Shown: one piece after another, positions 23,614-63,104 of the stretch
Position numbering within the stretch: position 1 is the stretch's first letter
Layout: the number at the start of each line of letters is the position of its first letter
NCBI RefSeq assembly: GCF_019649055.1
Contig: NW_026570237.1
Location: forward strand, 186,001-250,000
DNA length: 64,000 bases
Direction of reading: 5' to 3'
Source: Paramacrobiotus metropolitanus
Taxonomy: Eukaryota > Tardigrada > Eutardigrada > Parachela > Macrobiotidae
The notes under the pieces: generated by a model
What the model was told of the DNA's origin: nothing
Database searches by the model: none
What the model saw: only the letters and a program-made list of their open reading frames with translations
Program-made: the position numbers and the translations under genes

Positions 23614-23662
23614 ATGGTGGCTCCAGGGGTTGTCTAAATTCGGTTTAGACACTGTAGCTTTC

Positions 23663-29084: not shown

Positions 29085-29144
29085 AATTCATTCTACACAC
29101 ATCATGATCCCACTATTCCACCATAATCTCTACGAGATTCCTTC

Positions 29145-29155
29145 AAGAAGGGGAA
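29145..29155 (+). other. Polypurine tract of the gypsy element
   Basis: AAGAAGGGGAA (purines only) sits immediately before the 3' LTR, where plus-strand priming is expected. Confidence 0.75.
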
Positions 29156-29408
29156 TGTCATATAGAGAATGTATTTCCGTGTCACGTCTGTACATCTACA
29201 TAGCCTCTTGTGTTATATACCTAAATACCTTCACCTCTTTTACTCGTATATAAACGCTACCGTTTCTCTCATACGAGAATTCATGCTCTCATCATTCTAC
29301 GATCATCTCGATGCTATCTCTCTACGATCATCACCGACTGTACGTTTACCATTAAAGCTATTTAGTATCATCCGCGTATTCTCAATTACTAGTAGACACT
29401 GTATTACA
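29156..29408 (+). repeat. 3' LTR of the gypsy element
   Basis: Same length as the 5' LTR. Visible differences include TTATATACC for TTATTTACC, CACCTC for CACTC, TATATAA for TATTTAA, and a change near the right end. Contains TATATAA, which is TATTTAA in the 5' LTR. Confidence 0.9.
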
Positions 29409-38313: not shown

Positions 38314-41300
38314 TTCAGCAGCAATTTATTCCCGCAAGACCAAGAGTCGATTTGTCCGGTTGTAATTGAGTTAATGACGGTGGTACCAACTGCGCGCAAC
38401 CATTCACTTAGCTGTCCAGGAACGGGGCTGCGGCCGTAAAAGTCAATAATCCTTGCAAGATTGTTATTGCTTTCTGCCGGCTCCGCATTGTGGCCCGCAA
38501 GAGGGAATGGTGGTAAACTTTCCGCAAAGCCGTCCACTACATTTTGAGCTGGCGCTGGGCCAATATCTGCTGTCACGGCCTGCAGTATGTAATCTTCGTC
38601 GGCCTCGTCTGCTAAATCGGCATCAACATAGTCGACTGCTACATCGGTGTCATTAAAATCAACAATTTCACTGAATATTTCTACGTCCGCAGACATGTCA
38701 ATTGCTCCAAATTTGTCTGCGCGATTGCGAAAACGCCGCGGAGGACAGGATTTTTTGTTGGGAACAGGATACCTTTTATGGGGGTACCGTCGAAAAAATT
38801 CAGAAACAATATCTGCTGGAACAATCTGGCGATCCCTACTTGTAGACATCAGTGTTAGACCAGTTAAACGGTTGGTGCCCATTGTCGACCTGTGCTCTGT
38901 CTTTATCCGTTTCATAGCGGAAAAGACGCGCTCGTTTGTTGCAACTGTGACCGGTATTGTGCCGAAAATTTCAAGAAGTATTCTAATACTTGGGAATAAC
39001 GAATCAGGGCAATTTTTAAGAGCATCGCTCACGGATGATGGAAGTGGCTTTTTCGGGTAGAGACGACGAAAATTTCGCCAAGTTTGCACCCAAATCTGAA
39101 ATTCTGTCCGGAAAGAATTTCGATTTGGTAAATCGCTGGCGTAGAAGTCAAGTACCGTGTCAAAATCTCCAGCAGTCGGCTGTGTGAGGTTTTCGGCTAC
39201 AAGAACCGAAGGGATAAGAGAAGACAACTTTGCCAAAATGGGTGACCTTTTGCCGAACCGGTCATCAAGAGCCGAAACAACAGAATTGATAAAAGGAGCC
39301 GCAAGGACTCTTTCGTAATAATCAAATGGATCTGGCTTTGTTAGATTCAAAGATGCCATTTTTGCTTTTGAAAGCCTTGGTATGCTCGGGTTGACGTTGT
39401 GATTGGACAATAAATCAACTGTACGATTCCATGCGCCTCGCAAAAATTCATTGCGTTCGTCGGTATACTGCTGCAGTCTAGCGACTGAATCTCTAACCGC
39501 CCGCACATTACGCATGGCCATAGCGTAATCGTAGTTATTTTTCGTTTGCAGGGACTCGCTCAGTCTTTTGGTTTTCCCTAGCACTTCATGAGCTACCTAA
39601 AAAGTTAAGATGCTGAATCTAGATTTGCTGGTTTTTAAAATTTTTCTTAAAACTTACGAACGCGGAGAGTATATGCTCAAAATTTAAAAGTTGTTTGAGC
39701 AGATTCTCGGCTCCTCTCTTGCTCGCGACATTGTTGTCCTTAGCTAAGGTTTTCAGTGCTTCGATTAAGGCGGGAAACATGCATAGCATCCGGTTAGTGT
39801 TCATAGCGTAATTTGTCCATCTCGTTTCGCACACTTTAAGCACAGTCCGTCCTTTCGTCTTCAGCCTAACTGCTTCTTTTTTAAGGGCATCCGCACGCTT
39901 GGCCGATCCAAAATAATTGGAAAGCTCGTTTAGTAGCATAAGATGATTTCGTATTAATATATTTTTACAACTGGTAAGAAGGGCTAAATTGAGGCTATGT
40001 GCCCAGCAATGCACATACATTGCTAGTGGATATTCTCGCTGGATAATTGCATGGGCACCTCTCATCCAACCAGCCATGTTGGCCGCTCCATCATAACCCT
40101 GCCCCCGAAGACCTTCGATTTTTAAATTCCAAAATCGTAAACGTTCCAATATGATGTTGCTTATTCCCTGCCCTAAAAATGTCAGAGTATTATCCTCATG
40201 CAAATAACTATTAATTTAAAATGTTACTGTAACTCTCACCAGAGGTGTCATTGCTGATTGAGACGTACTCAAGAAATTCCTCAACAATTATATTGTTTTT
40301 GTTGATGTATCGCAATACGAGGGCCAGTTGATCAATTCTTGCTACATCGGTGGTCCCGTCTGCGAGCACGGAAAAAAACCGGCTTTCCCTTACGTCATTC
40401 AGTATTCGTGCTTGAATATTTTCTCGAATAAGATCGATAAAAACATTTTGGTGGGTAGCGCTACCAAAAATCACCGGTGACATCTCTAAATGATCTCGAA
40501 GGGCGTTGTCACCGGAGTCCAAAAACGCGTACAGAAAGGCATTAAAAAGCCCTTCTCTTGGATTTGGCAGATCGTAAACGTTGTTGCTGGGCTGTAATGT
40601 TCTAAATTCCGATCCGCGTAACGGCTTTTCCATTAAACCGCACAAGTAGATAGCTTTGACAAAACTTGCCAAGCCACCTTCAATTCTGGCGCGTATTCGT
40701 TTCTGTATGGGCATGTTATCGACTCGGCTGGTTTCGTTATCAGTATAATTTGGATCATGCTTTCTAAAGAAAAAGTACATAATACAAAAAAATTTCATTT
40801 TTTAAAAAAAATTAAGTTTTTATGTTTCTCAAGCTTACAGTCTCCAGGCAGCAGCGTTCGCCACGGCAGCATTATGGATGGACGATCTGGAATGCTGGCG
40901 TAACCGTTCGCCTATTTCACGGAAGTTTGTTAATGTCCGGCTGACAAGCTGCCAGTCGGTACGTTCTTTTTGAGCAGCCGATATCTCGCCGTGAAAAAAA
41001 GGACAGATTTTGCATATTGGGCCCTTATTTTTTTTTGACCAAGCCAGCCATTTGTGCTCCAACAAATACTTTCGGCTGAATTTCCTAAGTAACGGTCGTC
41101 CCGTAATATTGCTTTGGCCGTAACACTGAGGTTCAAAAGTATAGTTTTCTGGCGGTATTGGATAGTCATCTAAAATTTCTAACAGAACGTCGGAAGGTAT
41201 GTCTCGCAAATCTCTGTTCTGCCAGTCAGCTATATCAACTTCACCTTCAGTACGCTGTTCGGGTTCCATATTGTCGCATCCTGGTGGGCGTGATACATCG

Positions 41301-41865
41301 ACCTCCACTGGAATACACTCTGCTGGATGGTCTTCGTTCAATGTGTTCGCTGAATCGTTGACGAACAATGGTTTCGGTGTTGTTGGATCGTTGCTTTCAG
41401 AATTTTCTGGTAAACTTTCACCTTGTGGATTGCCAAGGAAAAAATAGGATGTAATTGTTTTCTGTTTTTTCGAAGTTTGTTCAGTGTTATCTTTTGCTTT
41501 TGATTTCCCTCGCCCGCCTGCCATATCATAACAGCCTTCGGGGATTTCTTGCTCGTTACCAACAACATTTGGGGCTTCGCAGGTGAGCTCTTTTTCAAAC
41601 AGAAGATTGGAAGAACCAGGTGTAGGAATACCATATTGGAAAACTGATTTATTTTTCGAATCAACAAACCGTGACATGGTTCTATCATAAAGCTTCCAGG
41701 TAACTTCCTTGAAAACACTGGACGTTCTCGGGCACATGCCACAGTAGAATGGTATGTTTTCCAAAAGTTTAGGCTGTTGGAAAAAAGCTGCAGCCGGAAA
41801 TGGTCTGTGTAGGCTTTTTTGACCAACTGGCGGGAAGTAAGCATTCTTATAAAGCGCCACGGAAC
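38271..41865 (-). CDS. hAT/ZMYM-type transposase, spliced
   Basis: Four exons fit GT-AG rules: 41865-40839, 40763-40240, 40172-39658 and 39596-38271, with introns of 75, 67 and 61 bp. A PIP-like lead KKQKTITSYF precedes a TTF-type zinc finger (KYLLEHKWLAWSKKNKGPIC with KICPFF). A DUF4371-like region follows (FFSVLADGTTDVARIDQLAL, GQGYDGAANMAGWMRGAHA, YVHCWAHSLNLAL). The hAT dimerisation region is LEIFGTIPVTVATNERVFSA with LTGLTLMSTSR. The reading frame begins before any transposase ATG: its first 110 or so residues (with CGMCPRTSSVF) are Cys-containing and not transposase-like, and they splice in frame from the exon at 42042. After the dimerisation domain it runs on for about 190 residues. 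Ends of the transposon were not found. Confidence 0.8.
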
Positions 41866-42482: not shown

Positions 42483-42544
42483 TTTGCATAGAAATTACGG
42501 AGGTTTATCTGCATACATAACAGTAGTAATATGCCTGTCTCGAC

Positions 42545-43540
42545 CGGCTTTTAGATGTGGGACGCTGATAAGAGCGTCCCGGGATGACGTCCCGTTTTTT
42601 TAAAAATAAATTTAAAAAATCAGAAAAAATCACTGATAATCAGAAAAAAATCGCTTAAATTATAGATAAATACATAGAAATTACCTGCTGGAAGTAGCAC
42701 CGCTGCCGTGAAGCGATTCGATATCACCTGCTGGTAGTATCACCGCTGCCGTGAAGCGATTCAAAACGGGCACAAGTTCCCTTCATGCATCAAAACGAAA
42801 TTTGGCGAACAGACTGGCAATGTCTGTTAATAATAGCGTAAAATCAGTATGTTCCGATGGTATGTCCGCTACTCAAACTGTGTGTACTGAAAGCAATAAT
42901 ATCCTTCAGATTTGCGAGCAGGGCCGCCGAGCACATTAACAAAAACCAAAACAAATGTCGCTCTGTCAGAAAATGTGCTCGCAGCATGACTGTCTGGCGT
43001 GGTAAGGGACTTTGATCCCGTACCACTTTTTTCTGTATTTGAGCGTGGCAGATCGTGTACTGTGTGTGCTTGTGGTACTCCATCAAGCACGCACACAGTA
43101 ATTATACACATGTAGCGCACAGGAACCCACGCATTCATTCGGCTGTCAATCTGGAAACCGCACTGGACACCCAGCATCCGTTCCCGCGTATAGAACTCCT
43201 GCTTGCCATACACAGAGATGTCGCAAAACGAGGTGAGATAACATTTTAATTATTACTGTAGTGCAATCACTGTACTCTCTTGAATAATTGTTGTTATGCT
43301 GTGTACTATAGTTGTATGAATAAAATATCAGTAAGTTATGTATGCTGTATGCTTGCATCGTTAATGCATTATCATTATGTATATACTGTAATGTTTTACC
43401 ATAACATTGTTGTATGTACAACTATGCGCTGCTGTTCCTGCGGTAAATTGTAGCTGAGTAACTGGACAATTCTAATTCAATTTAACCAACATATGAGGAT
43501 GGAAATTTTAGCGTGATAACGATACGTTAAAATTTTACCT
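42545..43540. other. Short repeats, no gene
   Basis: A tandem pair of about 43 bp at roughly 42683-42766 (GTAGTATCACCGCTGCCGTG-type units). No coding signal stands out; the overlapping frames at 42844-43421 are short and mutually exclusive. Confidence 0.4.
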
Positions 43541-46012: not shown

Positions 46013-46019
46013 TATATAA
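46013..46019 (+). promoter_or_regulatory. TATA box of the F-box-like gene
   Basis: TATATAA (context GGTATATAAAAGC) 72 bp before the ATG at 46091. Confidence 0.6.
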
Positions 46020-46090: not shown

Positions 46091-47610
46091 ATGAAGCGTA
46101 GCATTCAACTAGAAGGTTCTCCTTGTAAATATTGCAAGTGTGTTCATGACAGCGACGAAGAAGCGCAGATTGTTACGGAGGCGTGTCCCGAATGTCAACC
46201 GGTGCCGAAGGAGGTGTTCAAGGATTTCCAACTCCCAAGAGTTTCCAACCGCTTTCCCCACTGCTTCGATCACCAGTTGGAGGATGTACTGAAGTGGTAC
46301 GCCACGTCCCCCCGGAAGCGACCCAATTCAGCCGGAGAACCAGGCGACCTTGGTTGTGCGATGTGCACATGGAGGGATGGCGTGGAGACGGTGTATGCCG
46401 GCAATGCAGCGGACAGTCTTGAAGCGCAAGGCGCCAGGGACATCTGGACGTCGGCAACACCCACCAGGAACTGGTTGCGACAGTACACCGAACCGGATGG
46501 ATGCGGGCTTCCATTTTACCAGCAGGACACGATGAAGTACATCGTTTCCTTGATGACCCCCATTGACTTATATCATCTGAAGCGGGTTTCATCGGCGTTC
46601 AACTTCTACGCAGAAGAAGAAATAGCTGCCCGAGCTTCCAAACCCGAGGTCATCTTCAAAGCTTCGGATGTGGATAACTACACCAATGAAGGCATCCATC
46701 CTCCGTGTGACAGGTTGTACTGTGAAGTTCGAAATTTTAGCAAGAAGCTGTTTTGCGTAGTGTCCAACCGCACGAAATGCATCACCTTTGACATGAGGGA
46801 AAGCAACGGGGCCTACATCAATCATATGCACGACCATTTCTGCACGGTACTGCTGGTTCTGCAGGACGTTGCACCGGAGCTGCGCCATATCACCGTTAGG
46901 GGAGGTTTCATGAGTGTTAGGGCGATTCTGGAGACCGTGGAATGGATAAACACGCTGGAGTTGGAGGACGTCTATGTCTACGGATTCCGCCATCTTATTC
47001 CTGGATATGTGCACTCGGACATGTCGTACCTTGAGTGCGGGTGGATGAGAACGGAGAAATCGTATGTATCATTCTTTTAAGCTTTAGTCATAGAGTCGTG
47101 CTGCGTTGTACTAATCGCTCTGTACGTTGTAGATATCTTAAGCTTAATGCTTTGTTCGCTCGTGGAGCAAACCAGCCTCACCATGTCATCCATGTCGCCG
47201 AGGAATTGCTGGACACTTTCCATCTGACCTCCAAGGATCCACTCCCCCATCTGAGGACTACGCCTCATCTACGTACGGTTTGGCGGACAATCTGCGAGTA
47301 CTGGTTAACACGCCTGGACTGCCGCGGGATCGATGCAGTGGAGAGCATCATGCGCAAAGTGACATCCAACGACGCGTTCTCAATCTACAGTGCAGTGCGT
47401 ATTTGTGGAGACGATATGAACATTGGCTACCTCAACGAATTTCGGTACTATATGTTACGTTTACTACTAGCTGCACGCGGTATGGCTTTTCCACGTATGA
47501 TTAACTGTTTCTGTAAATTGTGTCACCAGGCACATCAAAGGTTGTTGATAGACGCAAAATCTTGTTTTGGCAAAGGAACTAGTTTACGTATGCTTGATTA
47601 TGCTTTGTAA
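46091..47610 (+). CDS. F-box-like protein, two exons
   Basis: ATG at 46091; exon 1 to 47061, intron 47062-47132 (GTATGT...TTGTAG, 71 bp), exon 2 to 47610, giving about 482 residues. The N-terminus has a Cys cluster (SPCKYCKCVHDSDEEAQ with CPEC), perhaps a zinc site. Near residues 140-180, GLPFYQQDTMKYIVSLMTPI followed by DLYHLKRVSSAFNFYAEEEI resembles an F-box (LP ... I ... L ... DL ... VS ... F). The rest has leucine-rich helices and several His/Cys residues. An F-box would link a target to a Skp1-Cullin ubiquitin ligase. It lies upstream of polB on the same strand with its own TATA box. A lineage-specific host gene cannot be excluded, because the element border is unknown. Confidence 0.5.
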
Positions 47611-47745: not shown

Positions 47746-47752
47746 TATATAA
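47746..47752 (+). promoter_or_regulatory. TATA box of polB2
   Basis: TATATAA (context AAGTATATAAAGCC) about 100 bp before the ATG at 47851. Confidence 0.6.
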
Positions 47753-47850
47753 AGCCGTGAACGTCATTCAGCAGGGTAATCATAATTCGAAGGAGTCTCT
47801 TGAGTTCATTAGCTGTGTACACATTACAAGTTGTGTTTATTGAGCGAAAA

Positions 47851-50800
47851 ATGGATGAGCATTCTGACAACCACGAAGAAGAAGAAGAAGAAGATGGCTT
47901 AGGTAGCATCCCTAGCATTTCAGAAGATAATCTGCTACTTGAGCAGGTAGCAGATACTTATTCTCAGAAATGGAAAACTGCACTTGCGGTTTTTCAGTGC
48001 CGCATCGCGCCCGAGTTGTTTGATGTTCCGTTTTCACGCCTCTGTGGAGTAATAGAAAGCATTTTTGAAGAACTGCTTAACAGAATTTTGGTAGACAAAA
48101 TTCAGCCTTGGTATATGGTACGCGTGCAATTATACAGCGATCATTTGCGAAAGAAGATTCCTATTTGGACACCGTTAATGCGGCGGGACGAACTAACTGT
48201 GGATCGTATCATGGCGCGCGTGGAACGGGTGATGCAAAGTTCAACAAGCTTTCGCTTGGATGAAAGCTTCAGGATTGAAGTCCAGTACACAGAAACGCCG
48301 GATGGTGGAGGTAATGACAATCTAGTGATTCCTGAAAGCGTTAAAAGGCTACTGAAAAACAAGATGTCTATCGTGCGCATAAAGAACGACGATAATTTAT
48401 GTTTACCACGGTCCCTAGTAACGGCTAAAGCCTTAGCAGATGACGATCTGCAGCTGTATTCAACGCTACGTGACACCAGGGCACATAAGCACCCAGAAAA
48501 GCAGCATAAGGATCAGCAGACATTATTGGCGAAACAGCTGGTAATAGCTGCAGGCCTGACGGAGCGGCGCTACAGCCTGGACGACGTAGAGACTTTTCAA
48601 AAGTTACTAAGCGATTATCAAATCATAATTGTTGGACTGGAACAGCTTAACAGCATTATCTTTGCTGGCGAATTCAGGGAAAAACGCTTAATGCTATTGT
48701 ATTATGCCAACCATTTTGACGTTTTAACATCTCTTCAAGGGTGGTACGAAAAAAGCAAATGGTGTTTTCATTGTAATCAGGGGTACTCTCACGAAGGTGA
48801 TCATCGCTGTAAATATACCTGCAAGCTTTGCTTGCGCGAAAGGTGTGAGCTCGAAGCAAACTTTGCGCGATACTGTGCGGGATGCAATCGAACGGGCTTT
48901 AGAAACAACGAGTGTTTTAACCACCACCTTGCAAAGACAGCGAAAAGCACAAACCATAACAAAAAGAAAAGCATTTGCGAAAAATTCAAGGTCTGCATAG
49001 ATTGCTCAGCATTCATAAAGACGAACGTGAAACGAGGATACGGGACAGACCATGTATGCGGCGAAATTTATTGTTCGGTTTGCCTGTGTTATGTATTACC
49101 GGAGCACCATGACTGCTATATTAAACCCGAGAAACTTGACGACAAAGTATTAGCCAAGCACAAATCTGCTAGTTTCATGTACTTTGATTTCGAGACGTAC
49201 CCCGACGGTAATGGAAAGCACATCCCAAATTTTTGTGTAATACAAGTGCAAGAAGATGGAAAGCCCATTGAAACCCGCCAATTTCCCGAGGACATCAGCA
49301 ACATTGGCAAAGACATTGCAGGCGATGTCTGTGAATTTATTTTCCAAGAAAAGCATGCTGGATTCTTTTGTTTGGCACATAACTTTAGAGGGTAAGAAAT
49401 TTTAGTTCTTCTTCTGTTTCACACAACATGAAATACGTTGAAAGTATACAGCTTACGGATAAAGTGGTGGGCTTTCTAGGTTCGATGGCTATTTTATTTT
49501 AAAATGGCTGCTTCAGAAAGGTCAAGCGCCTGACGTTATCATGAAAGGTTCCCAAATCACGCACCTGCGCGATCGGGAGTTTGGCATTAACTTTCGGGAT
49601 ACGCTCAATTATGTTCCTTTGTCATTGGACAACTGGGCGAAATCATTCGCCGTTGAGGAAACTAAAGGTAAATTTCCACATGTCCTGAACCGACCACAAT
49701 TTTGGAACACAGTTATTGACTATCCGGACATTGAAAAGTTCAACTACCGATTTATGAGCGATAAAGAAAAACATGCATTTATGGAATTCTATAATGAAGA
49801 CAAAGCTTTAAAAGAGGATTGTATGACGTCAACAAGGAACTGGCTGCCTATTGCCACCAAGACGTGACCACGCTACGTTGTTGTGCAATGCAGCTGCGCG
49901 AACTTTTTTCAAAATTACGGATGGACTATGTATTTTTCAATCCGGTTTAACCCTTCCAAGTGTTTGTCATTATTTTTGGAGGTCCAGGCTGCTAAAGCCT
50001 TTGGAAGTTGAGGTTATTCGTATGCCCAGCAACAGAATATCCTCCAATAAAGCCAATTCATGGTTACAGTGTATAAGTCAGAGCCAAGGTATTGAACTGG
50101 AGCGAGAATTCAAAATTGGTGCATTATTCATTGATGGGTACCATCTGGAAAGTCGAACTGCATATGAATTTTATGGGTGCGTGCACCATGGCCATCCAAT
50201 ATGCACGAATCCAAGTACACGCCACCCGCATCAGGACGCCACAATGGGTGAGTTGTACGAGCGAACCGTACGGCGCGAAGGAATGTTGAAAAAGCTTAAA
50301 ATCAATATTGTGAGCGTTTGGGAATGTGAATATGACAGTCGCATTAAAAACGACGCTAATTTTGCTACTGCTATAAAGAACATACGGATTGTTGAACCGC
50401 TTGACCCGAGAAAAGCATTGTTCGGAGGACGAGTAAATGCCCTAGTGTTAGACTATAAGGTCAAGCCTGGAGAGAAGATAATGTACTTGGATGTTGTATC
50501 CGAATATCCATATGTCAATAAAAACAAGCGCTATCCGGTTGGCAAGCATAAAAGAATTACTAATAATTTTAAAACCTTGGATAACTATTTCGGAATTATG
50601 CATTGCAAAATATTACCGCCTCGCAACCTGATGATACCGATATTACCGGCGCATTTCGATAAACTGATTTTCACGTTATGCCGCACCTGCGCTGAAGAAA
50701 AGAATCAGCAAGTTTGCACGCACGAGGATCCGGAGCAAAGAGCTCTGACGGGGACTTGGTGCACACTAGAACTACAAGAAGCCGTGAAAAATGGTTATGA

Positions 50801-52016
50801 ACTAATGGAAATTCACGAAGTATGGCACTATCCCGACAGCAGAGAGCGCTTTTTTGCTGATTATATTGATTTGTTCCTGGCGCTTAAAGTGCAAGCTTCT
50901 GGCTGGCCGGCTGATATTAAAACTCCAGAGCAGCAAGATGCGTTTCTGGACCACTTTTTCCAAACGGAAGGCATCCGGTTGGACGGTTCCAAAATAAGCT
51001 GGAATCCGGGACTGCGGCAGCTCGCTAAGTTGTGCCTGAACAGGTTAGTGCTTGATTTTTTTTGTTTGTTTGGTGTCGGTCATACACTAAGAGTAGTTGT
51101 AGTATTAGTAATTTATGCTATGGTGTTTACAGCTTTTGGGGCCGGCTGGGAATGAGAAATAACCTTCTCAGCACAGTTTTCGTGAACACTGTGAAGGATT
51201 TTCTGCACTATTTAACGTCTTCAGAATTCGAAATCCATGATTATGACGTATTTTCGGATGACGTTGTACAAATAATGTACACGAGGAAGGATGCTATGGT
51301 TCCGACTAACCCGAAAACGAACGTGGTTCTAGCAGCGTAAGTGATAATAGTTTCAGTTTTAGTGCTTCATTTAAATCAGGTAAATTAGACTTGTACTTAT
51401 TTTTTGCTGTCAGGTTTACAACGGCACACGCAAGATTACATTTATTGAAATTCATGCAAAGAGCTGGCGAGCGATTACTATACTTTGATACGGTAAGAGC
51501 TAAAGCATTAGCGTAAAGCATATGAAACTAGAAGAAACGAGAAAAAACATAGTTTTTAAATTGTAGGACAGCATTATCTTTGTTCAGCGTCCAGGTGATG
51601 AGCCGTTTGAAACCGGGTCCACTCTGGGGATGTTAAGTAATGAGCTGGCCGAGGACGACTTCATTACGCGCTTCTGTAGTACTGGTCCAAAATCTTACAG
51701 CTACGTTACGGCATCTGGGCAGGAGGTCTGTAAAATCAAAGGATTTGAAATTAATAAACTTACAGGAACGGTGTTGAATTTTGATTCGATGTTGAAAATC
51801 GCAACCCAACCTCTCCAAGATGAGACCGCCTCCGATAGCGCTCATGGTAACGTTCAGCCCGAGTCCCTTTCCGTCACATATGGTAGTACTATTCGCCGGA
51901 AGAAACGGACATATGAAATCCAAGATGTGCCTATGACAAAGCGGTTCAAAAAGACGTACGACAAACGACGCATCTTAGATGACTTTACTACTGTGCCATA
52001 CGGTTACGTACCATAG
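47851..52016 (+). CDS. POLB: Polinton protein-primed DNA polymerase B (polB2), five exons
   Basis: The family replicates Polinton genomes by protein priming. Exons by GT-AG: 47851-49391, 49480-51043, 51133-51336, 51414-51492 and 51567-52016. The N-terminus has an acidic start MDEHSDNHEEEEEE, MSIVRIKNDDNLCLPRSLV and Cys/His clusters (WCFHCNQGYSHEGDHRC, CGEIYCSVC). Exo I is FMYFDFETYPDGNG, Exo II spans the first intron (AHNFRG, then FDGYFILKW) and Exo III is AAYCHQDVTTL. Palm motif A is LDVVSEYPYVNKNKRYP (Glu where Leu is usual). Motif B is split by the third intron after CLN, continuing FWGRLGMRNN. Motif C is split by the fifth exon border exactly between DT and DS. Two -1 frame changes occur in exon 2, near 49800-49820 and 49903-49914. 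The gene ends TVPYGYVP. Confidence 0.9.
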
Positions 52017-52366: not shown

Positions 52367-53545
52367 ATGTCTGGATGTGAACCCGAAAATGTTCGTTTAT
52401 CATCAACATCGACATCGCCACCACCATCGCCCGGAACAATGGATGCCATTCAGCACATTATCTGGCAAGGTGACTGGCAAGGTGGATTGCACGATAGGTT
52501 AAAAGGTTGCCTCGTGGGGAGTGTTGTTGCCAGCAGCTTTGGTCGTCTGTTCAATACACCCTTCTACAGAAGCCATTTACCAACCTTGAGAGAAGTTCAT
52601 GAGCGGTGTGCTGATGTGGCCAAGGATCCTTGTTATGTGCGTTGTGGGTTTAGTGGAACAGTTGCTCTGGTGGTTCTCGAAGTAACTGTAGGTTGCTATA
52701 CAGTCGAGCGTGACTATATAGCCGATGGACTGGGTAAAGCGTTAGGATCATCCAACTACTTTGGGGGTAGTAAGCACATGGAGCGTTTATTGAAAGAGTT
52801 TCATCGGCGATGGAATGCTACAAGCAGCGAGAGCAACTTTGCTCTTCGACGAGATGACGAAGCTTACGTTTGTGGGCCTGCAAGAAGTGCGCACGGTGGG
52901 CAGGGCTCTCACGGGTATCACGGAGCAGTGATGGCTGCAGCGGTGGCTTTGTACTACTGCCGCGAACCTAGTTGCTTCCTCCGGAGAGAAGTCGAGAAGT
53001 GTGTAGCCATCACACATGCGCATCGTTTGGGGATTGATGGAGCTGTGCTGTTTGCCTTTGGTTTACAGGAAGCGTGTGATAGCGCCCGCACAGCTTCAGT
53101 GACGACCTTTTTGAAACGGCTAGAGGATTATGCTTCAACTCTCGAACCACCATTTGGAGAGAACATGATAGCTGCCAATGCGTTATACGTAAACCATAGC
53201 GTACTGCGTTCGCCGGCAGACATTATCCGACTGTATCCGAATGTTAACTCGCGCGCCGCACAGGACTTTGTTCCGCTGGCTATGGTCATGGCATTCGTGG
53301 GTGGAAACCTGCAGTGGTGGTCTGGATATAACATCATGTCACCTTGGAAGCGAATGGTCCAGAGCTGCATTGCCCTTGGAGGTGACACGGATGGTCGTAC
53401 GTTCATGGCAGGCGCATTATATGGAGCTTTCTATGGACTTTCGTCTGACCAACGTGAGTTTGAGGCGATGCCCGAGATAACGGAAGCAAACAATGCTAGT
53501 ACTTTAGCTGATGCATTGTATAAAGGGTGTCCACCCGATGACTAA
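52367..53545 (+). CDS. ADP-ribosylglycohydrolase-like protein
   Basis: Intronless, 392 residues, close to the usual ARH length. ARH enzymes remove ADP-ribose from proteins, reversing PARP/ART marks. Domain start near residue 45: HDRLKGCLVGSVVASSFG (family D-R-x2-G-x2-x-G-x3-G-D-x2-G). Near residue 190, GSHGYHGAVMAAAVALYYC matches G-S-x-G-N-x2-x-M-R. Near residue 222, VAITHAHRLGIDGAVLFAF matches the x-T-H-x-H-P-x-A region. At the end, ALGGDTDGRTFMAGALYGAF matches GGDTDT-x5-G-x2-G. The two Asp of GGDTD are kept, but the upstream (S/T)DDT metal-site motif is replaced by FSGTVALVV, so activity may be lost or altered and it could be a binder rather than an enzyme. An internal ATG at 52439 is an alternative start. 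Between polB and the PC4-like gene, same strand. Confidence 0.8.
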   Translation: MSGCEPENVRLSSTSTSPPPSPGTMDAIQHIIWQGDWQGGLHDRLKGCLVGSVVASSFGRLFNTPFYRSHLPTLREVHERCADVAKDPCYVRCGFSGTVALVVLEVTVGCYTVERDYIADGLGKALGSSNYFGGSKHMERLLKEFHRRWNATSSESNFALRRDDEAYVCGPARSAHGGQGSHGYHGAVMAAAVALYYCREPSCFLRREVEKCVAITHAHRLGIDGAVLFAFGLQEACDSARTASVTTFLKRLEDYASTLEPPFGENMIAANALYVNHSVLRSPADIIRLYPNVNSRAAQDFVPLAMVMAFVGGNLQWWSGYNIMSPWKRMVQSCIALGGDTDGRTFMAGALYGAFYGLSSDQREFEAMPEITEANNASTLADALYKGCPPDD

Positions 53546-55395: not shown

Positions 55396-56040
55396 TTAGT
55401 AGAATGCTTCAAAATTATAAACACGTGTTTTTGCATTGAAAAAGTCATTAATAAAGTTACGAACCATCAAGTCGTTTTGAAATTGATTATCAATTCGATA
55501 TAGGTTATGAATGATGTAGGAATAGGAAAAGCGACATACTGATCGCATTACTATAAAAAACATGCAGTGTTGAGCGCAGGTAGTGGACAATGGCTGTTGT
55601 AAAACAGCTCGCTGTTCGTATAGGGGCAACGGTGGTGATGACGCAGGCTGGCCGATGAGTTGCGTTTTCAGAAAATTTTCAAGTGACTGACTATAATAGG
55701 CCACGGGTTTGCCGTAGGAATCGAAAACTTCAATAAATGAGGGGCACTCAACGTAGACGGCAATCCAATGTGTTCCGGGTTCGCTGGCTGGATCAGTGTT
55801 TACAATAAACGCAGCAGGTAGGTCGACCTCTGTAAGATGCTGCTGCTGTAGCTCATCTAGGGCGTAAACGCCGCGAAACACCGATCTCAGCATGTGCGAA
55901 GCGGGGTTGTACTGTGACCACATGATATTCCGAATTTCCTGTTCGTTCATTGTGACGATTTGTTGTTTAATTACGACGCAAAGTCGCAAATAACCTGGCG
56001 TAAATTGGTGAATTCTATTAAATGGTCGCACGTTATCCAA
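55396..56040 (-). CDS. PRO: Adenain-like cysteine protease (Polinton PRO)
   Basis: Maturation protease related to adenovirus protease. A conserved-type opening FRGVYALDELQ precedes AAFIVNTDPASEPGTHWIAV, which holds the catalytic His in THW. VFDSYGKPV supplies the acidic residue. LQQPLSTTCAQHCMFFIV carries the nucleophile Cys, with Ala where most relatives have Gly after Cys. The long frame begins at 56040, but an internal Met (MNEQEIRNIMW, about 55950) matches the usual family start better. Its gene follows the major capsid gene on the same strand, the usual Polinton neighbourhood. Confidence 0.88.
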   Translation of the reverse strand: MDNVRPFNRIHQFTPGYLRLCVVIKQQIVTMNEQEIRNIMWSQYNPASHMLRSVFRGVYALDELQQQHLTEVDLPAAFIVNTDPASEPGTHWIAVYVECPSFIEVFDSYGKPVAYYSQSLENFLKTQLIGQPASSPPLPLYEQRAVLQQPLSTTCAQHCMFFIVMRSVCRFSYSYIIHNLYRIDNQFQNDLMVRNFINDFFNAKTRVYNFEAFY

Positions 56041-56062: not shown

Positions 56063-57315
56063 TTAGTGGTGTGTCAAAGTTACTTCCAGGCCCACTGTCC
56101 CTGATCGAATTAGCGTCATGGGCCCTAAGCCTGTAGCCGTTGGCGTCAGGTCAAAAGCGAACACTGTGTATCCTTTTGCGTATGTATGACGATCCAGAAT
56201 ATGGGCTCCAGCTGGATGGTTTTTTGATTCAAAACATCCAAGAAGCCGTCATAACACTTTAAATAGCGGTTGTTTGGAAAGTCACACATGTAGGGTATCG
56301 TTGGGTATTGCTTCCCATCCACATTAATACAGATTTGACGAACGCGACAATGATCAAATACAAACGGATTGAGGCTTGTTGTGCCATGGAAGCGGTCCGA
56401 TTGCACAAAAGCAATAAATACCACCTTAGGTAGTTGGCCGTACTTGAGGTCAGAAAAGGCTATGGTTTGGGTGCCAGCAGGAATAGCACGCGCCTTTAAT
56501 TCTGCGCGTTCAATGTGGTATTTGGCTGTTGTTGTTTGTAACTTTTGTGTAATAGCGTTCATGAAATCCGGTGATGGGATATAGCGTCGTACGGTTATGC
56601 GTGGATGTTTCATAAATGCCTTGTATTCTGTTGCAGCCGCCGCACCAGTATTCCATGATCGTAAATAAAATTCTGAATTGTTAAAGTATAGGCTAACGTG
56701 CACGGGCACGCCTGTGAGCAAAGGTTTTGATTGTACGCATAAGTCCGTGAAAATCTTTCCCGATAACTGAACGCTAGCACTTAAAGCAAATAGCTCCTTG
56801 CGCTTTGCTTCACCAGTGTTCTCTGTGGCATGTTCCATCTTGCCTGGTGTGTCGAAATAAAATCCGCCGCTCGTTAGCTGGCTTTTCATGGCATCTTCAG
56901 TATAACTTGTTAGAACCTCCATTATAGCGCGATAGGGATAATAAGGTGAACAGTCAGAGATCACCTTGTTCGCCACAGTAAAATGAATTTGTTTGAACAA
57001 ACTATGCACAATATAATTAACAGGCGCTACGTTATCATTGTTCTCTAGGTTCACCCATGCATTTGTGGCGTTCTTTTTCTTTATACTTAATTCACACTCA
57101 AAACACGTATCCGTGAGCGAGAGCAGACCGTTGGATGACGGCGGGATAAAGAAAGACAGGTTACCGCTTAATGGTGAGTCTTCCGGAGGCGCCGACTCTG
57201 GTCCATACTCTTGTGTCTCATAGCTGAAACGTTCCGTTAACGATGCCGGTACGGAGAACAGGTTCATGTCACTAGACATGGCCGGCTCTGAGTGTGGTAG
57301 GAGATATTCAGGCAT
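56063..57315 (-). CDS. MCP: Polinton major capsid protein (double jelly roll)
   Basis: Forms the hexon-like capsomers. ATG at 57315 (MPEYLLPHSEPAMSSDMNLF). Family-typical parts: DSPLSGNLSFFIPPSSNGLL, NDNVAPVNYIVHSLFKQIHF, YPYRAIMEVLTSYTEDAMKS and VQSKPLLTGVPVHVSLYFNN, then RYLKCYDGF near the end. The first frame stops at 56146, but from the T6/A6 run at 56220-56225 the -1 frame carries a family-like C-terminus (GYTVFAFDLTPTATGLG) to a stop at 56063. So the final 50 or so residues are out of frame in this copy. The start overlaps the end of the pVI-like gene by 8 bp. This is the family often annotated as F54H12.2-like. Confidence 0.88.
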
Positions 57316-57835
57316 TTTTGTAGTTTTTTTTAGAAAATATCGGGATACTTATCAAAAGAACCGTTACTAGTACGGTGCTTTCGTCGTTTCGTGTTTTTTC
57401 TCTTTTTGAATGTTTAGTAGGGCGTTTGCGTTTACTTCCGCTACCAGTTTGCTGTTTAACAGTCACGAGTTGAGGGGCTTCAGTAGAGGTTACTGCTGCG
57501 TCTGAAGGCTGAGCTGGCTCCAATATTTTCCCTAGCTTTTCAGTCACCTTTTCCGCAGCACTGGTGGCTACACTTTGAGCGGCTTGCTTCAAGTGAGGTT
57601 TTGCTGACTCTAATGCTGCTCTAGCATGGGGTAGAGCGCTTCGAACGAGCGGTGCGGTGAATTTGGAGACGCGCGAAAACACTGTTCGGAAAAAGTCTGC
57701 TAAGCCTGAACCGCTTTGTAGACCTGAACTCCGATATCTGCCTAATGGACCATAACCAATCTGATTCTGTTCAAACAGCTCCTCAAATAGACTTGAATCA
57801 GGTTCAAAGAGCACAAGGTTATGGGGCGCAGCCAT
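57308..57835 (-). CDS. pVI/pX-like minor virion protein
   Basis: 175 residues. It has an acidic N-terminus followed by GYGPLGRYRSSGLQSGSGLA, then DFFRTVFSRVSKFTAPLV with an amphipathic Ala-rich helix region, the Gly-rich plus amphipathic layout of adenovirus pVI-like and Polinton minor proteins. The C-terminus is basic (KRKRPTKHSKREK), suggesting nucleic-acid contact. At an A6 run about 80 bp before the end, the -1 frame gives a more typical basic tail ending DKYPDIF (stop at 57330-57332), so the written end may be out of frame. The annotated stop overlaps the capsid ATG. Confidence 0.65.
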   Translation of the reverse strand: MAAPHNLVLFEPDSSLFEELFEQNQIGYGPLGRYRSSGLQSGSGLADFFRTVFSRVSKFTAPLVRSALPHARAALESAKPHLKQAAQSVATSAAEKVTEKLGKILEPAQPSDAAVTSTEAPQLVTVKQQTGSGSKRKRPTKHSKREKTRNDESTVLVTVLLISIPIFSKKNYKNA

Positions 57836-57859: not shown

Positions 57860-58888
57860 TCAACGAACAGGCCTAAAATGCAGTTTCACTAATGATTTTC
57901 CCGCCTGAAATTTAAAATCTTCGTCTTCGGAGCTCAAGTTGATTTCGATGGTTTCGATGAAATTACGTACTAGTGGTACATAATGTGGTTGGTCGAATCG
58001 TTCCGTTATGAGATCAAACGGTTCTCCTTTAATAGGCATAGAACGTAAAACTTGTGCGGTTTGATCGCCTAACGCTGAAAACTCCACAATGTCCGAATAA
58101 ACATACATTGTTGTGTTGTTATGTTGCATGTTGGCAGATTTATTGGACGCTACCACCATTGGTACGTCCAACGTATCAGCATTCAGCGGTTGTTTTCTTT
58201 TAAGTAGGTACCATAGATAAGGTCGAGGAGTAATAAAAGTACTAGGAATTCTTCCGAACGGTTCAGCTGGCGTCCCATCTTCTTCTATCATTTCTTCAAT
58301 ATAGTAACGAAATTTTGAAGGAACACCGTCAAGATCTTTAAAGTCTAAAGGGTCTATATCGTGTTGAGTCTGCACAAAACCAAGTAACCCTTTCAATCGG
58401 TCATCGTTTTCGGAAAAACGCAGCTTGCCACGCAAGCTATTAAACGTTACTTCCGTCTTGAGCGTTACAGGATTATAACGTATATTGAACACCTTTGTGG
58501 TACTGTTATTTGTGCGAAGGCGTGAGGGAGTAACATTGCGACCTTTTAAGTCTACCGAGTTTGGCGACTGTCGCTCAATTACGTCAATTAGCGCCTTCAA
58601 TGTATATAGACCCGGTGGAATGATGATCGTATTCTGAACCGATGACAAGGAAGTGTCACTGATGACATCGTACTCGTTAACAGTTAGTTCTTGCTCTTTT
58701 GGTATGTTGTAGATTGAGTTTGTATATTGCAATTCCACCAAACCCACTTCCCACCGGCCCGATAAGGAAATTGGAATTTTTAGTTTAGTCTTCCACATTT
58801 GCGCACTGTTCTTGGGATACATGTCCATTGACGCATCGCTTGGTAATGTTACGTAAAACGGTGTACTGTTTCCAACAACACTAGCCAT
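57860..58888 (-). CDS. Penton-like minor capsid protein (single jelly roll, Polinton PW type)
   Basis: 342 residues, intact. Family features: FYVTLPSDASMDMYPKNSAQ at the start, RWEVGLVELQYTNSIYNIP, a middle segment PPGLYTLKALIDVIE, and a conserved end with NNTTMYVYSDIVEFSALGDQ, FDQPHYVPLVRNFIETIEIN and SLVKLHFRPV. It occupies capsid vertices in the adenovirus-like model. The gene overlaps the stop of integrase by 8 bp and is followed by the pVI-like gene 24 bp later. Confidence 0.88.
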   Translation of the reverse strand: MASVVGNSTPFYVTLPSDASMDMYPKNSAQMWKTKLKIPISLSGRWEVGLVELQYTNSIYNIPKEQELTVNEYDVISDTSLSSVQNTIIIPPGLYTLKALIDVIERQSPNSVDLKGRNVTPSRLRTNNSTTKVFNIRYNPVTLKTEVTFNSLRGKLRFSENDDRLKGLLGFVQTQHDIDPLDFKDLDGVPSKFRYYIEEMIEEDGTPAEPFGRIPSTFITPRPYLWYLLKRKQPLNADTLDVPMVVASNKSANMQHNNTTMYVYSDIVEFSALGDQTAQVLRSMPIKGEPFDLITERFDQPHYVPLVRNFIETIEINLSSEDEDFKFQAGKSLVKLHFRPVR

Positions 58889-59903
58889 TTCCGTCAGCTA
58901 CTTTTGATAGCTCTTGCTCATAAAACTTTCCAATTACACTGGGTCCACCGTCGGCAGGTTCCACTTCATACACAGGTACGCGATGCTTGATTACCTTATT
59001 CACTCGATATAGCTTTTTTGTGTACTTCACATCAGCGCCTTTCTTAAAAAGCTGCTTTTGCAAACGAAGACGCACTGTGTCTCCGTCCTTAAATAGCGGT
59101 ACCTTAGCTTTGCTTTTGTTATTACTGTTGGACTGTAATCGCTGAAACACTAAAAGCGAATTTTCTCGATTGACGTCATTCGGCGCCAATCCATGCGCCG
59201 TGTGAGGTGTGCTGTTGTAGCTGTGAATAATGTCCTGTAACTTGTCATAATATTTTACACTCCCATCACGAGCGGTCATCAGTCGCATGAGACGCTCTCG
59301 TAACGTTCGGATGAATCGTTCTGCCATGTTAGCTTTAATTTCACAGTTCTCTTCAGAAAACATAACGACGCCGTTCTGTTTCATGTAGTCTTGAACTGGT
59401 TTGTTGTAAAATTCACGCCCTGTGAACGAATAATACAGTTAGTTTGCGACGCTTACGACGGTTCCATCCTATGTGTGTGTGTGTGTAGTACCTCTATCCA
59501 CTTGTAAATACATAGGTGGTCCATACAAACGAGAAAAGGCTTTCTCCAGGGCAGGAAGAACGTATTCACTGCTTTTTTTTGTCAGCATTTCGCATGCTAC
59601 TTTTTTGGAAAAACTGTCCACAACAACCAGCAGAAATTTTTTATGTTTATTCTGCTTTGCGTAACGGGACACATCCATCAGGTCAGCCATGTATTGTTCA
59701 CCGAACTGTATTGAAACTACCGGATTTCTGCGGAATTTCCGCCGAGACGGCTTATGTAAATTGTAGGCGTCAATTCCTTGCAGAAGCTTTAGGGCTTTGT
59801 CATGCTGATTAAGTTCGCTTGACACGGTTTGATGCTTCCGGAATCGTTCCACTCCCCCCAGGCTTGCCACTTGCGCCGCACTCACGTACTCCGCTTCTCC
59901 CAT
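58881..59903 (-). CDS. INT: Retroviral-type integrase (Polinton INT), two exons
   Basis: ATG at 59903; exon 1 ends at 59492, intron 59491-59420 (GTACTA...TTCACAG, 72 bp, with a (AC)n run), exon 2 59419-58881, about 316 residues. The catalytic D-D-E is complete: first Asp in EQYMADLMDVSRYA, second in MYLQVDRG at the exon 1 end, Glu in ANMAERFIRTLRERL. The SH3/chromo-like tail is FKDGDTVRLRLQKQLFKKGA with YEVEPADGGPSVIGKFYEQE. The N-terminus has LHKPSRRKFRRNPVVSI, a typical linker. It integrates the element; 6-bp target duplications are known for the family but were not located here. Confidence 0.9.
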
Positions 59904-60794: not shown

Positions 60795-61132
60795 TTATTG
60801 GTGGTTTGCTGTCACTGCGCTTATAACGGCTGATGCTAGTAATGGTAATAGAGCGGGTAAGAATCCTCCTCGTTGTAATAGTATACGTTTTTTCTTTTGA
60901 AGTGATACACTTGGAGATGCTAGAAGCTTTATGGGAGTCTTGCACTTTTACACGCTGTCAGCTGATGAGGCTTTAAGGGGACTCGTCCTTTAATAAGGTT
61001 CAAGGCAAGCTCTTGAATACCCCTTATATGGTGTTTATCGCAACACTGCTTCAACAGTGCTCTTCGTTGCTTAGGCTTTGCCCGGTTAAGGGTAAGCAAA
61101 AACGGGGCAATCTCCTTCGCTTTACTTGCCAT
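60795..61132 (-). CDS. Polinton small conserved virion-type protein with hydrophobic tail
   Basis: ATG at 61132 (MASKAKEIAPFLLTLNRAKP), followed by KQRRALLKQCCDKHHIRGIQ and ELALNLIKGRVPLKPHQL, the LL ... N-(V/L)-L/I-x-G-x-(V/I)-P-L pattern of a frequent Polinton/adintovirus ORF. At an A4 run (60946-60949) reading moves to the -1 frame, where the expected end RILLQRGGFLPALLPLLASA follows to a stop at 60795. That hydrophobic GGFLPALLPLL tail is characteristic of the group. The start overlaps the ATPase stop by 11 bp. Exact role unknown. Confidence 0.6.
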
Positions 61133-61826
61133 TTTTTAGGCTCAGTGATGGCAGATGATCAGTATAAATTCTCATTGTCTCTTTAGGAAACAAATGCGAT
61201 CGCAGCCTTAAATAAGATGGACAAGCTGGGGTAAGGTCAATTAAGAGCGGTTGATAGTTTTCTGACGTGCAAGCCGCGTACGCTTGCGCAAGGCACTTTA
61301 GTTTTGTTTGACGTTGTAAGATATCGATCTGGCCGAGGTCCCGAGCATTCTTAAACAGCACCATATACTGACAATTTAGTGTTATATCACGCATCGCTTT
61401 TCCTTGTTTGTACAGGTTTTGGGTAATATAAATAACGCTCAGGTTTTTATGGTGAATTCCTTGCGTGAACAGATTACTGGCCTGCTCATTTTTTGCCATC
61501 TCGTGTGCCAAATCATCCACAATCAGTAAATTTGTCACCTCTTTATCGAAAAAATCCTCGTCCGAAAAAAGGTCACTCAGTCCTTTCACAAACTCTGTTT
61601 CTGGACACTGAACTTTCAAAGCATCGTATCCATTCTGCCACTGATTGTATGCATATACCACTCTTCTCGGAGTCGAAGTCATCATTTCTTTTCGTTGCTC
61701 GATTAGGCGGAAGACAAAAGACGATTTTCCAACCATTGTAGGACCGCAAATCATCATTCCAAAAGGAGTTACGAGTTTTGGCTGACTTTCCAGCTCCACG
61801 AAATTGTTTTGAATTACTGCTGTCAT
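61122..61826 (-). CDS. ATP: FtsK/HerA-type genome packaging ATPase (Polinton ATP)
   Basis: 234 residues, intact. Walker A MMICGPTMVGKSSFVFRLIE, Walker B NLLIVDDLAHEM, and a sensor-type Asn in SVIYITQNLYKQGK. It powers DNA packaging into capsids. Gene order (ATPase first, then small proteins, integrase, penton, capsid) shows a continuous minus-strand block. Its ATG overlaps the ATG of the TBP-like gene on the other strand in a CATG palindrome (61824-61827). Confidence 0.92.
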   Translation of the reverse strand: MTAVIQNNFVELESQPKLVTPFGMMICGPTMVGKSSFVFRLIEQRKEMMTSTPRRVVYAYNQWQNGYDALKVQCPETEFVKGLSDLFSDEDFFDKEVTNLLIVDDLAHEMAKNEQASNLFTQGIHHKNLSVIYITQNLYKQGKAMRDITLNCQYMVLFKNARDLGQIDILQRQTKLKCLAQAYAACTSENYQPLLIDLTPACPSYLRLRSHLFPKETMRIYTDHLPSLSLKNGK

Positions 61827-62346
61827 GGCGGCATCAATAAAAAATATAGTCGCAGTTGGTAAACTGAATTGTGGCTTTGATCTTCAAGATATCGCAGACC
61901 TTCTCCAGATCCCGTACGATCCCAACATTTTTTCAGGACTTACTATTCGCCGAACGCGTCCATACAAAAGTCACTGTCAACTATACAGCAATGGTCGGAT
62001 TACAGTAAACGGAGCTGTTACCGAGCGTAATGCTGAAGAGCTTCTCGAACTCTATTGTAACGATATGCACATTTTAGGCTATACCGATGCGTACGTTACG
62101 GACTTCGAAATAGTTAATGTAGTAGCGTCTTGGGACATGTATCGACCATTGAAACTAGATAACGTGTTTAAAAAGCTGCACTGCTACCGCCCGTGTTATG
62201 AACCTGAACTGTTTCCTGGTCTAAGCGTCCATCTACCGGAAGCAACTTGTGTAATTTTTACCTCTGGTAAAGTTAATATTTTGGGTGCAAAGTCGGAATT
62301 GGCTGTGCGTAGTACGGCAGCCGAACTTCGCTTGCTACTGTTTTAA
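61825..62346 (+). CDS. TATA-binding protein (TBP) homologue encoded by the Polinton
   Basis: 173 residues, the length of the TBP core, and shows both pseudo-repeats. Repeat 1: IKNIVAVGKLNCGFDLQDIA, YDPNIFSGLTIRRTRPYKS, CQLYSNGRITVNGAVTERNA. Repeat 2: FEIVNVVASWDMYRPLKLDN, YEPELFPGLSVHLPEATCVI, FTSGKVNILGAKSELAV. TBP binds the TATA minor groove using four Phe. Here three are present (IFSGL, ELFPG, IFTSGK), and the second of repeat 1 is Tyr (QLYSNGR). It is well diverged from metazoan TBP, without an N-terminal extension or introns. It could recruit polymerase II to the element's own TATA boxes or compete with host TBP. The start codon is shared in a CATG with the divergent ATPase. Confidence 0.85.
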   Translation: MAASIKNIVAVGKLNCGFDLQDIADLLQIPYDPNIFSGLTIRRTRPYKSHCQLYSNGRITVNGAVTERNAEELLELYCNDMHILGYTDAYVTDFEIVNVVASWDMYRPLKLDNVFKKLHCYRPCYEPELFPGLSVHLPEATCVIFTSGKVNILGAKSELAVRSTAAELRLLLF

Positions 62347-62499: not shown

Positions 62500-63104
62500 T
62501 CAGTTTTCTTGCGGCGGGCGATCTGGTCTGCAGGACGTTCCGCTATGCCAGTCATGCTCAGCTTGTGGGTCGTCATGCGGCTCCCAGTTTTCTAACTCTA
62601 GTCCACAATGAATACACTTCACTAGGTCACGCAATCCCGTGTAAAAGAAGCCGGCTCTCGCAAAACGCGCCGCTGACGGTGTACGCAGTGTCCAGTTCCG
62701 GTGTTGAACGAGTGCAGACGGTATACGAACCGTCTGAATTCATGTTGCAGCCGATAGCCTGCTGCAGCACGCCCAGGAGTCGCTGTGTCCGTTCTTCTGG
62801 TAGGCGCTCCCGGGGGATCCAACCAAACCAAAGTGTATCCACTCAAAGCGCCCAATGGTAGACGATACGGCCTATCCGCCGCAGGCGCTGAAGTCGACGC
62901 AGTTGCTGGTTCTGGCCGTAGCGGTGGTTGTGGCGGAGTTGGCGTGGCTGGTGACGCTCCGGTTTCAGCGCTTGGTACTGAAGCTGAGTCCGGTACTTGC
63001 GGTGGAACAGACCTTGTTGAGCTTACTGGAGAATCTTGCAATTCGCCATCTTCAACCAGAAGAGAGTCTCCACCACTATCGTAGTCTTCGTTGACTTCAG
63101 ACAT
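62500..63104 (-). CDS. Single-BIR (IAP/survivin-like) protein, one frame change
   Basis: ATG at 63104 (MSEVNEDYDSGGDSLLVEDG); the first 90 residues are acidic then Pro/Ser/Thr/Ala-rich. Near the end of this frame comes FRRFVYRLHSF, the R-x2-(S/T)-F start of a BIR. From about 62705 the rest of the BIR lies in the -1 frame: WTLRTPSAARFARAGFFYTG, LRDLVKCIHCGLELENWEPH and DDPQAEHDWHSGTSC, stop at 62500. Zinc ligands C-x2-C-x16-H-x7-C are all visible (the last spacing is usually 6), along with the AGFFYTG and DDPxxEH signatures. There is no RING. BIR proteins of baculoviruses and animals block apoptosis or act in cell division; which applies here is unknown. A TATATAAA (reverse strand, 63150-63143) sits about 40 bp before the ATG. 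Confidence 0.75.

Follow-up and report, generated by a model that had tools for sequence, protein, structure and literature searches.

We report here that a Polinton in the genome of the tardigrade Paramacrobiotus metropolitanus carries its own TATA-binding protein (TBP), a homologue of 173 residues with the two lobes of cellular TBP, encoded at 61825..62346 (+) of the window, by which we mean the whole 64,000-nucleotide stretch of DNA analysed. Related genes recur beside Polinton genes across this genome, appear to evolve under purifying selection, and share a set of substitutions on the presumed DNA-binding face that sets them apart from the cellular TBPs compared. On balance, we favour the reading that the Polinton TBP is an altered-specificity factor, likely recruiting host TFIIB and RNA polymerase II to the late (virion) promoters of the element.

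The TBP gene and its product

The open reading frame is complete, from ATG to TAA, and the Pfam family PF00352 matches both halves of the product in two stretches, with a whole-protein E-value of 9.5e-30 and a score of 102.7 bits against a curated cut-off of 22.9. The best matches in the PDB are cellular TBPs (phmmer, 1.4e-21); down to 1e-12 all matches are TBPs or TBP fusions, and the sole other match has an E-value of 1.9. A saddle fold is predicted by AlphaFold2 with a mean pLDDT of 96.6 (input alignment of 23 rows), and in Foldseek the model has 44 PDB matches (E <= 0.001), every one a TBP or a complex that includes TBP, with TM-scores to the query of 0.77-0.93, mostly around 0.9, and identities of 28-32%. 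The window TBP shares about 30% of its residues with cellular TBPs, has no N-terminal tail, and keeps the YEPELFPGL stirrup and the central Asn 257 of cellular TBP. The profile search and the structure prediction that the first-pass annotation had proposed therefore both bear out its reading, made from the letters alone, of a 173-residue TBP with two pseudo-repeats, and the identity of the ORF as a two-lobe TBP homologue is confirmed.

The neighbours of the gene are also those that had been claimed for it. The packaging ATPase gene (61122..61826, -) is divergent from it, with the two ATGs overlapping in GTCATGGC at 61822-61829, and a BIR domain of the inhibitor-of-apoptosis type lies downstream (62506..62736, -; PF00653, 9.4e-17). 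The BIR frame is distinct from that of a 160-aa ORF at 62622-63104, for which Pfam gave no BIR domain. BIR/RING domains lie within the element.

The surrounding Polinton

The element is a Polinton, bounded by terminal repeats and a target-site duplication. Its left terminal repeat lies at 42522..42648 (+) and the right one beyond the window, at 67499-67625 in window-frame coordinates (fetched locus L083); the two are inverted, 89.8% identical over 128 columns (8.75e-43), and begin with AGTAGT at both ends of the element. A perfect 6-bp duplication, CATAAC, flanks them, its left copy at 42516..42521 and its right copy following window-frame position 67625. AGT-type ends and perfect 6-bp duplications are among the criteria applied to vertebrate Mavericks (PMC8097293). 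The TBP gene lies between these repeats, and it recurs beside Polinton genes genome-wide (see below), so the earlier assertion that it is element-borne holds.

Among the genes on the forward strand are the N-terminal piece of PolB (47800..49395, +), recognized by a search within this genome, a further PolB piece of the viral/organellar B-family type (49851..51155, +; PF03175, 5.5e-22), and an ORF of the ADP-ribosylglycohydrolase family (52367..53545, +; PF03747, 3.7e-19). The reverse strand carries an adenovirus-type cysteine protease (55396..56040, -; PF00770, 8.1e-6, over the cut-off) and an integrase in two pieces, the first with the rve core (59469..59903, -; PF00665, 1.5e-8, over the cut-off) and the second with a weak match (58881..59384, -; PF13683, 0.021) and tblastn matches in other elements. 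The A32-like match of the ATPase is weak (Pox_A32, 0.0033, below the cut-off), and the family alignment shows its P-loop to be conserved across element families.

The ORF at 56146..57315 (-), which is 45-49% identical to its counterparts in three other aligned elements, we take to be the probable major capsid protein; it has no Pfam or PDB match, and its single-sequence fold reached a pLDDT of only 31. The ORF at 57860..58888 (-), conserved and syntenic in other elements and with no Pfam or PHROG match, is presumably a minor capsid (penton-like) protein, and a small protein at 57308..57835 (-) is likewise conserved in other elements, with no Pfam match. PDB profile searches with the capsid and ATPase alignments yielded nothing useful. 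The integrase frame is broken beside a TG repeat, and the PolB frames are broken as well, in this copy or in the assembly; since the host TBP gene itself shows an apparent one-base frameshift in an A run, an assembly error is possible for these broken frames.

Recurrence and purifying selection in the genome

Three match lists were merged, omitting two host-TBP rows and counting fragments more than 1 kb apart separately, which gave at least 221 loci for element-type TBPs with the host gene excluded. A listed ATPase or integrase match (for the integrase, the best 150 of 398 candidates) lies within 10 kb of 163 of these loci, and the remaining 58 have none at that distance. For the ATPase by itself the number is 136 of 221; when positions were drawn at random on the same contigs (200 draws), the mean was 22 and the highest count 31. 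Seen from the other side, a TBP lies no more than 10 kb away from 135 of the 148 ATPase loci, a figure that holds for the best-matching ATPases, as the 148 were merged from the best 150 of 419 candidates. All 20 stretches fetched round other TBPs (10 kb each, two of them shorter at contig ends), which represent about six families with 14 of the 20 in one family, match further genes of the window element.

The arrangement is not uniform. TBP and ATPase lie at most 15 kb apart in 141 pairs; the distance is no more than 200 bases in 56 of these and 6-9 kb in 47, and in the families of loci L021-L038 the TBP lies within a few kb of both ATPase and integrase. As this distance varies among families, the TBP gene seems to have been kept while its position changed. 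Decayed copies with internal stops exist; in 20 pairs chosen among open frames, within and between close families, dN/dS (NG86) was 0.05-0.34 in every case. Judged from these substitution ratios, the element TBP is under purifying selection in the copies compared, and a neutral passenger, for which dN/dS would not lie well below 1 in all 20 chosen pairs, was rejected.

At least one element TBP ORF is already present in databases as a host TBP-like gene: entry P0123, from P. metropolitanus, is identical at 165 of 165 compared residues to the element ORF on contig G000:C147. A transcriptome study of this species is also on record (PMC11191345).

Relationships of the element TBPs

In order to place the element TBPs, a tree of 69 rows was built, which included 24 element rows chosen to span families from 61 TBP ORF matches (the host gene and near-copies among them), 18 environmental rows (17 derived from metagenomes, and P0136 from an unnamed NCBI record), and archaeal outgroup rows taken from PDB alignments and Halorubrum virus HRTV-9. 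The 24 element and 18 unnamed environmental TBPs form one clade (support 100/99, branch 0.94). The host TBP, a separate gene at G000:C4 with an apparent intron, is 97.5% identical in its core to the Hypsibius exemplaris TBP (P0013) and groups with it. Of the tree envisaged in the first-pass annotation, the host part is thereby realized, with the host TBP outside the element clade; the 69 rows cover element, environmental, cellular, diverged or related, and archaeal-type proteins.

A clade made up of the element TBPs of this host alone is rejected by the AU test (p ~1e-103), so the element TBP lineages are common to other, unnamed sources. Under the same test a shared origin with animal TBPs (p 0.13) or with tardigrade TBPs (p 0.094) was not rejected, and the element TBPs may ultimately derive from an animal TBP.

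In the BFVD, the top viral structural match of the window TBP is a giant-virus TBP (1.7e-12); the named matches (E <= 0.001) are 8-20% identical to it, and among the 50 rows listed, many of them unnamed, no named match is a Polinton. Scans of IMG/VR with the TBP alignments and with the ATPases found no relatives, nor did a scan of the genome-contig collection with cellular TBPs find any. Six further candidates from fish and bug (P0204, P0211, P0225, P0236, P0171, and P0172) were set aside; they are without the element signature described below and are likely host TBP paralogues.

Changes on the DNA-binding face and the partner surface

Positions are given in human numbering, taken from a PDB chain, and we assume that yeast numbers are the human ones minus 98. 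Three of the four intercalating phenylalanines are kept in the window TBP (F197, F288, and F305), and they are present in 23/24, 24/24, and 24/24 element rows, respectively. The fourth, human F214 or yeast F116, is Tyr in 20/24 element rows including the window TBP, which agrees with the single Phe-to-Tyr exchange seen at first reading. At five positions that presumably face the DNA, the element rows depart from all 15 cellular rows: L212Q (24/24), T222N (22/24), V301T (22/24), V311N (19/24), and T313L (24/24). The triple L212Q/V301T/T313L is shared by 22 of the 24 element rows and by 15 of the 18 environmental ones; none of the 15 cellular rows, the eight diverged or related factors, or the four archaeal-type rows has it.

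L303V is a further change, present in 14/24 element rows and in the window TBP. TBPm3 (Ile152Phe, Val161Thr, and Leu163Val in plant numbering) is reported to retarget TBP to TGTA boxes (PMC4466886). Mapped by spacing in our analysis, V301T and L303V of the window TBP correspond to two of these three substitutions, and the third position, human 292, is Ser.

On the partner surface, Glu 286 is found in 20/24 element rows and Glu 284 in 13/24, with both in 13/24 and in the window TBP; Glu 284 is missing in the other 11/24. We matched these two residues to C.L3.2 and C.L3.4, the acidic positions of TBP that are reported to contact TFIIB (PMC7221094). R205 is absent from all 24 element rows. The net charge of helix 2 is -4 in the window TBP and +2 in the host TBP, and ranges from -4 to +5 over the element family; the loss of the N-lobe basic patch is thus clear in the window TBP and variable among element families. 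Selection for an altered set of promoters or partners, as suggested in the first-pass annotation, may have acted on the element TBP, and the clade-wide changes on the DNA-binding face fit this suggestion.

TFIIB and promoters

A search of the whole genome with the TFIIB family PF00382, which could miss a very diverged element TFIIB, gave six matches at three loci, none of them on the contigs of the listed TBP, ATPase, integrase, or PolB matches. As no element TFIIB was found, the partner of the element TBP is probably host TFIIB.

In the window, a canonical TATA box, TATATAA, lies at 47746..47752 (+), where the first ATG of the PolB frame follows 105 nt downstream and no upstream open frame of 60 codons covers the site, and another TATATAA at 46013..46019 (+) precedes the ORF at 46091-47080 by 78 nt. 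Upstream regions of PolB were collected from the window and from 20 loci fetched out of 94 rows; the anchor was the start or, for L070, L071, L072, L078, and L080, which have no ATG in the fetched stretch, the opening of the frame. TATAWAR occurs within 160 nt before the start in 15 of 21 PolB genes (12 of 18 sequence clusters); of 32 virion-module genes, taken from seven elements, only one has it within 150 nt before the start (Fisher 1.2e-7; by clusters 1.7e-6). Most of these virion-module upstreams fall in the coding sequence of adjacent genes, several of their predicted starts are uncertain, and the AT contents of the two sets are 63% and 59%. Over the whole PolB upstreams (440-630 nt) the motif is likewise present in 15/21, where shuffled sequences gave 3.3 on average and 9 at most. 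In seven of the 15 PolB genes the matches lie solely inside upstream open frames of at least 60 codons, five of them in frames of 97-124 codons; when sites in upstream frames are left out, the contrast becomes 8/21 PolB versus 1/32 virion-module genes (p 0.0015).

A motif that might mark late promoters, where 'late' is a label given by gene type and not by expression, was sought before the same 32 virion-module genes, and none was established by the 8-mer and k-mer searches. The top 8-mer, TTTCCAAC, scored 28.5 against a shuffled maximum of 27.6 (12 shuffles, with fewer restarts), and we do not count it as a promoter motif because in the stretch upstream of the window TBP it coincides with the ATPase P-loop codons read on the reverse strand. 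None of the k-mers was more frequent than the shuffled maximum, and the 7-mers of highest z (up to 4.6) were found in only 4/32 upstreams; one of them, TTGTAGG, also lies within P-loop codons in the window. TATTWAA was not enriched: with upstreams taken as 120 nt it occurs in 2 of the 32, and shuffling gave 1.3 on average and up to 4.

Proposed role of the element TBP

In the role that we favour, host TBP would read the TATA boxes of the early element genes, and the element TBP would read a different core promoter, docking on host TFIIB through the retained glutamates of the E284/E286 type. With the basic contacts of its N-lobe lost, it may evade regulation by host factors, Mot1 for example. 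The outcome would resemble a virus-style switch, the simplest account that accommodates all these observations, in which replication genes would be expressed first through host TATA recognition and virion genes afterwards through the element TBP. We put forward this two-stage programme, with host TBP for replication genes and then a TBP-only orthogonal system, having no TFIIB of its own, for virion genes, more tentatively than the altered specificity itself; its protein half is drawn from sequence comparison, and its promoter and partner steps are ones that we infer. On such a two-stage reading, the virion core promoter would be one that the host does not use.

Several other explanations have to be weighed. 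The element TBP might simply replace host TBP at ordinary TATA boxes, PolB included, and by doing so escape control by Mot1, NC2, or TAFs. The TATA boxes before many PolB genes, the three retained intercalating phenylalanines, the acidic N-lobe helix of the window TBP, and the loss of R205 in 24/24 rows all agree with such a substitute, and the same escape is argued for giant-virus TBPs (PMC7221094). However, the substitutions at positions 212, 222, 301, 311, and 313 have reached, or almost reached, fixation in the clade, which would be unexpected if TATA reading were conserved, and the loss of N-lobe charge differs among families, so in our view this explanation is rather unlikely.

We consider it improbable that the protein, as a decoy or repressor, shuts down transcription of the host by tying up its TFIIB or occupying its promoters, and does not drive element genes. 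Purifying selection on the whole protein, together with a shared signature on the DNA face, exceeds what a decoy would need, and an endogenous element that shut down its germline host would, by this reasoning, harm itself; these arguments have to be set against the TFIIB-contact glutamates, which are often kept while regulator contacts are lost, and against the lack of any element TFIIB among the PF00382 matches of the whole genome.

A cofactor of integration or of Pol III transcription, tethering the integrase or the element DNA to promoter complexes in the manner of Ty3 and TFIIIB, whose structure has reportedly been published (PMC8632968), would account for the TBP being near both ATPase and integrase in the families of L021-L038. 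The position of the TBP varies, however, with 47 of 141 pairs lying 6-9 kb from the ATPase, and we give this idea only a slim chance.

Finally, a recent retrocopy of the host TBP, or a neutral passenger, is scarcely credible: the element TBP is intronless and the AU test leaves room for an ultimate origin from animal TBP (p 0.13 and 0.094), but the window TBP is only about 30% identical to cellular TBPs, compared with 97% between host and Hypsibius, and groups in a separate clade with element and metagenome TBPs, in which environmental relatives interleave with the copies of this host (p ~1e-103 for a one-host clade), and dN/dS is well below 1. With at least 221 merged loci, the case of a recent host copy with no counterparts, against which the first-pass annotation had wished its claim to be held, is contradicted.

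The element TBP bears on the debated nature of Polintons, which may be transposons or integrated viruses, and on how virion genes could be expressed in an animal nucleus. That these elements possess a TBP under selection, placed next to most of the ATPase genes examined in this single genome, suggests a dedicated expression programme, which can be tested directly through one small protein. If the proposal is true, a mobile element of an animal would possess an orthogonal promoter system based on TBP alone.

Comparison with known systems

With animal Polintons/Mavericks the window element shares PolB, integrase, adenovirus-type protease, ATPase, AGT-repeat ends, and the 6-bp duplication. The main texts of five papers on these elements (PMC4028283, PMC8097293, PMC11071308, PMC10120064, and PMC10328495) contain neither 'TATA' nor 'TBP', and no report of a TBP in Polintons was found in the open-access main texts searched, PMC12945077 among them, in line with the first-pass annotation, which knew of none.

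TBPs are encoded by several eukaryotic DNA viruses. A TBP is recorded in 59% of mirusvirus genomes (PMC10132985), elements in Cymbomonas that putatively stem from mirusviruses have sporadic TBPs (PMC10675990), and algal-virus TBPs are on record (PMC4602308). Mirusviruses, which are eukaryotic DNA viruses, resemble the present element in encoding a TBP, and differ in their HK97-type virion lineage and large genomes. The giant viruses (Nucleocytoviricota) also have a DNA-virus-encoded protein of TBP fold with changed N-lobe regulator contacts. Their TBPs, however, almost always come with a viral TFIIB, and C.L3.2 is kept in about 40% (PMC7221094), whereas no element TFIIB was found near the listed Polintons and E286 is kept in 20/24 element rows. 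That no element TFIIB was found is the clearest difference from the giant viruses.

The vTBP of beta- and gamma-herpesviruses may offer a working model by analogy. This viral TBP mimic (KSHV ORF24, EBV BcRF1) reportedly steers host RNA polymerase II to late genes (PMC7498053, PMC4922670, PMC4893493), together with five other viral proteins and at late promoters with TATT; the corresponding TATTWAA is not enriched in the virion-module upstreams of the Polintons.

With cellular TBPs and TBP-related factors, finally, the element TBP has in common the two-lobe saddle, the YEPELFPGL stirrup, three of the four phenylalanines, and Asn 257. It differs from cellular TBP in being encoded by a mobile element, in its identity of only about 30%, in the residues 212Q, 222N, 301T, 311N, and 313L, and in the loss of R205 in 24/24 rows. 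The element TBP could be regarded as a natural experiment in specificity, in which an altered DNA face is combined, probably, with an unaltered host TFIIB.

Element-borne TBPs in the host genome and their annotation

In the P. metropolitanus genome (G000), a second deep branch of elements is found on contigs C146, C308, C25 and C3, in which the TBP and ATPase genes are arranged in tandem on the same strand, with about 145 bases between them. The TBPs of this branch share just 27-28% identity with the TBP of the window. A further Polinton-type TBP ORF, P0123 (G000:C147:277997-278476), has been entered in a public database under P. metropolitanus as though it were a TBP-like protein of the host, and has a C-terminal extension without a match to TBP. 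In this assembly, the host TBP itself (G000:C4:406165-406662; loci L009 and L010) presents an apparent one-base deletion within an A run, and therefore the frameshifts observed in element genes may, in part, be assembly errors.

Cargo genes and neighbouring mobile elements

BIR domains and a RING finger are encoded within the Polinton of the window, at 62506-62736 (minus strand) and at 2208-3479 (minus strand) of L083, the locus that carries the right end of this element. This region is an inhibitor-of-apoptosis-like cargo gene, perhaps present in two copies. The Polinton also contains an ADP-ribosylglycohydrolase-family ORF (52367-53545, plus strand; PF03747, 3.7e-19), an unusual cargo, which might counter ADP-ribosylation-based defence.

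Outside the element, translations point to pieces resembling the polymerase of a second, older Polinton (21656-30499, minus strand), interrupted by an apparent gypsy-type retrotransposon (23630-29084, plus strand). Judging likewise from translations, ORFs similar to a hAT-type transposase lie immediately outside the Polinton left end (37702-41860, minus strand).

Other diverged TBP-like proteins

TBP-like proteins that evolve fast and whose function is uncertain occur in several fish (P0204, P0211, P0225 and P0236); the signature of the element TBPs is absent from them. Another diverged TBP group (P0163, P0183, P0187 and P0212) is encoded on metagenome contigs, the longest of which reach 75 kb. 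The two members included in the 69-row tree are separate from both cellular and element TBPs, and the group possibly originates from large DNA viruses.
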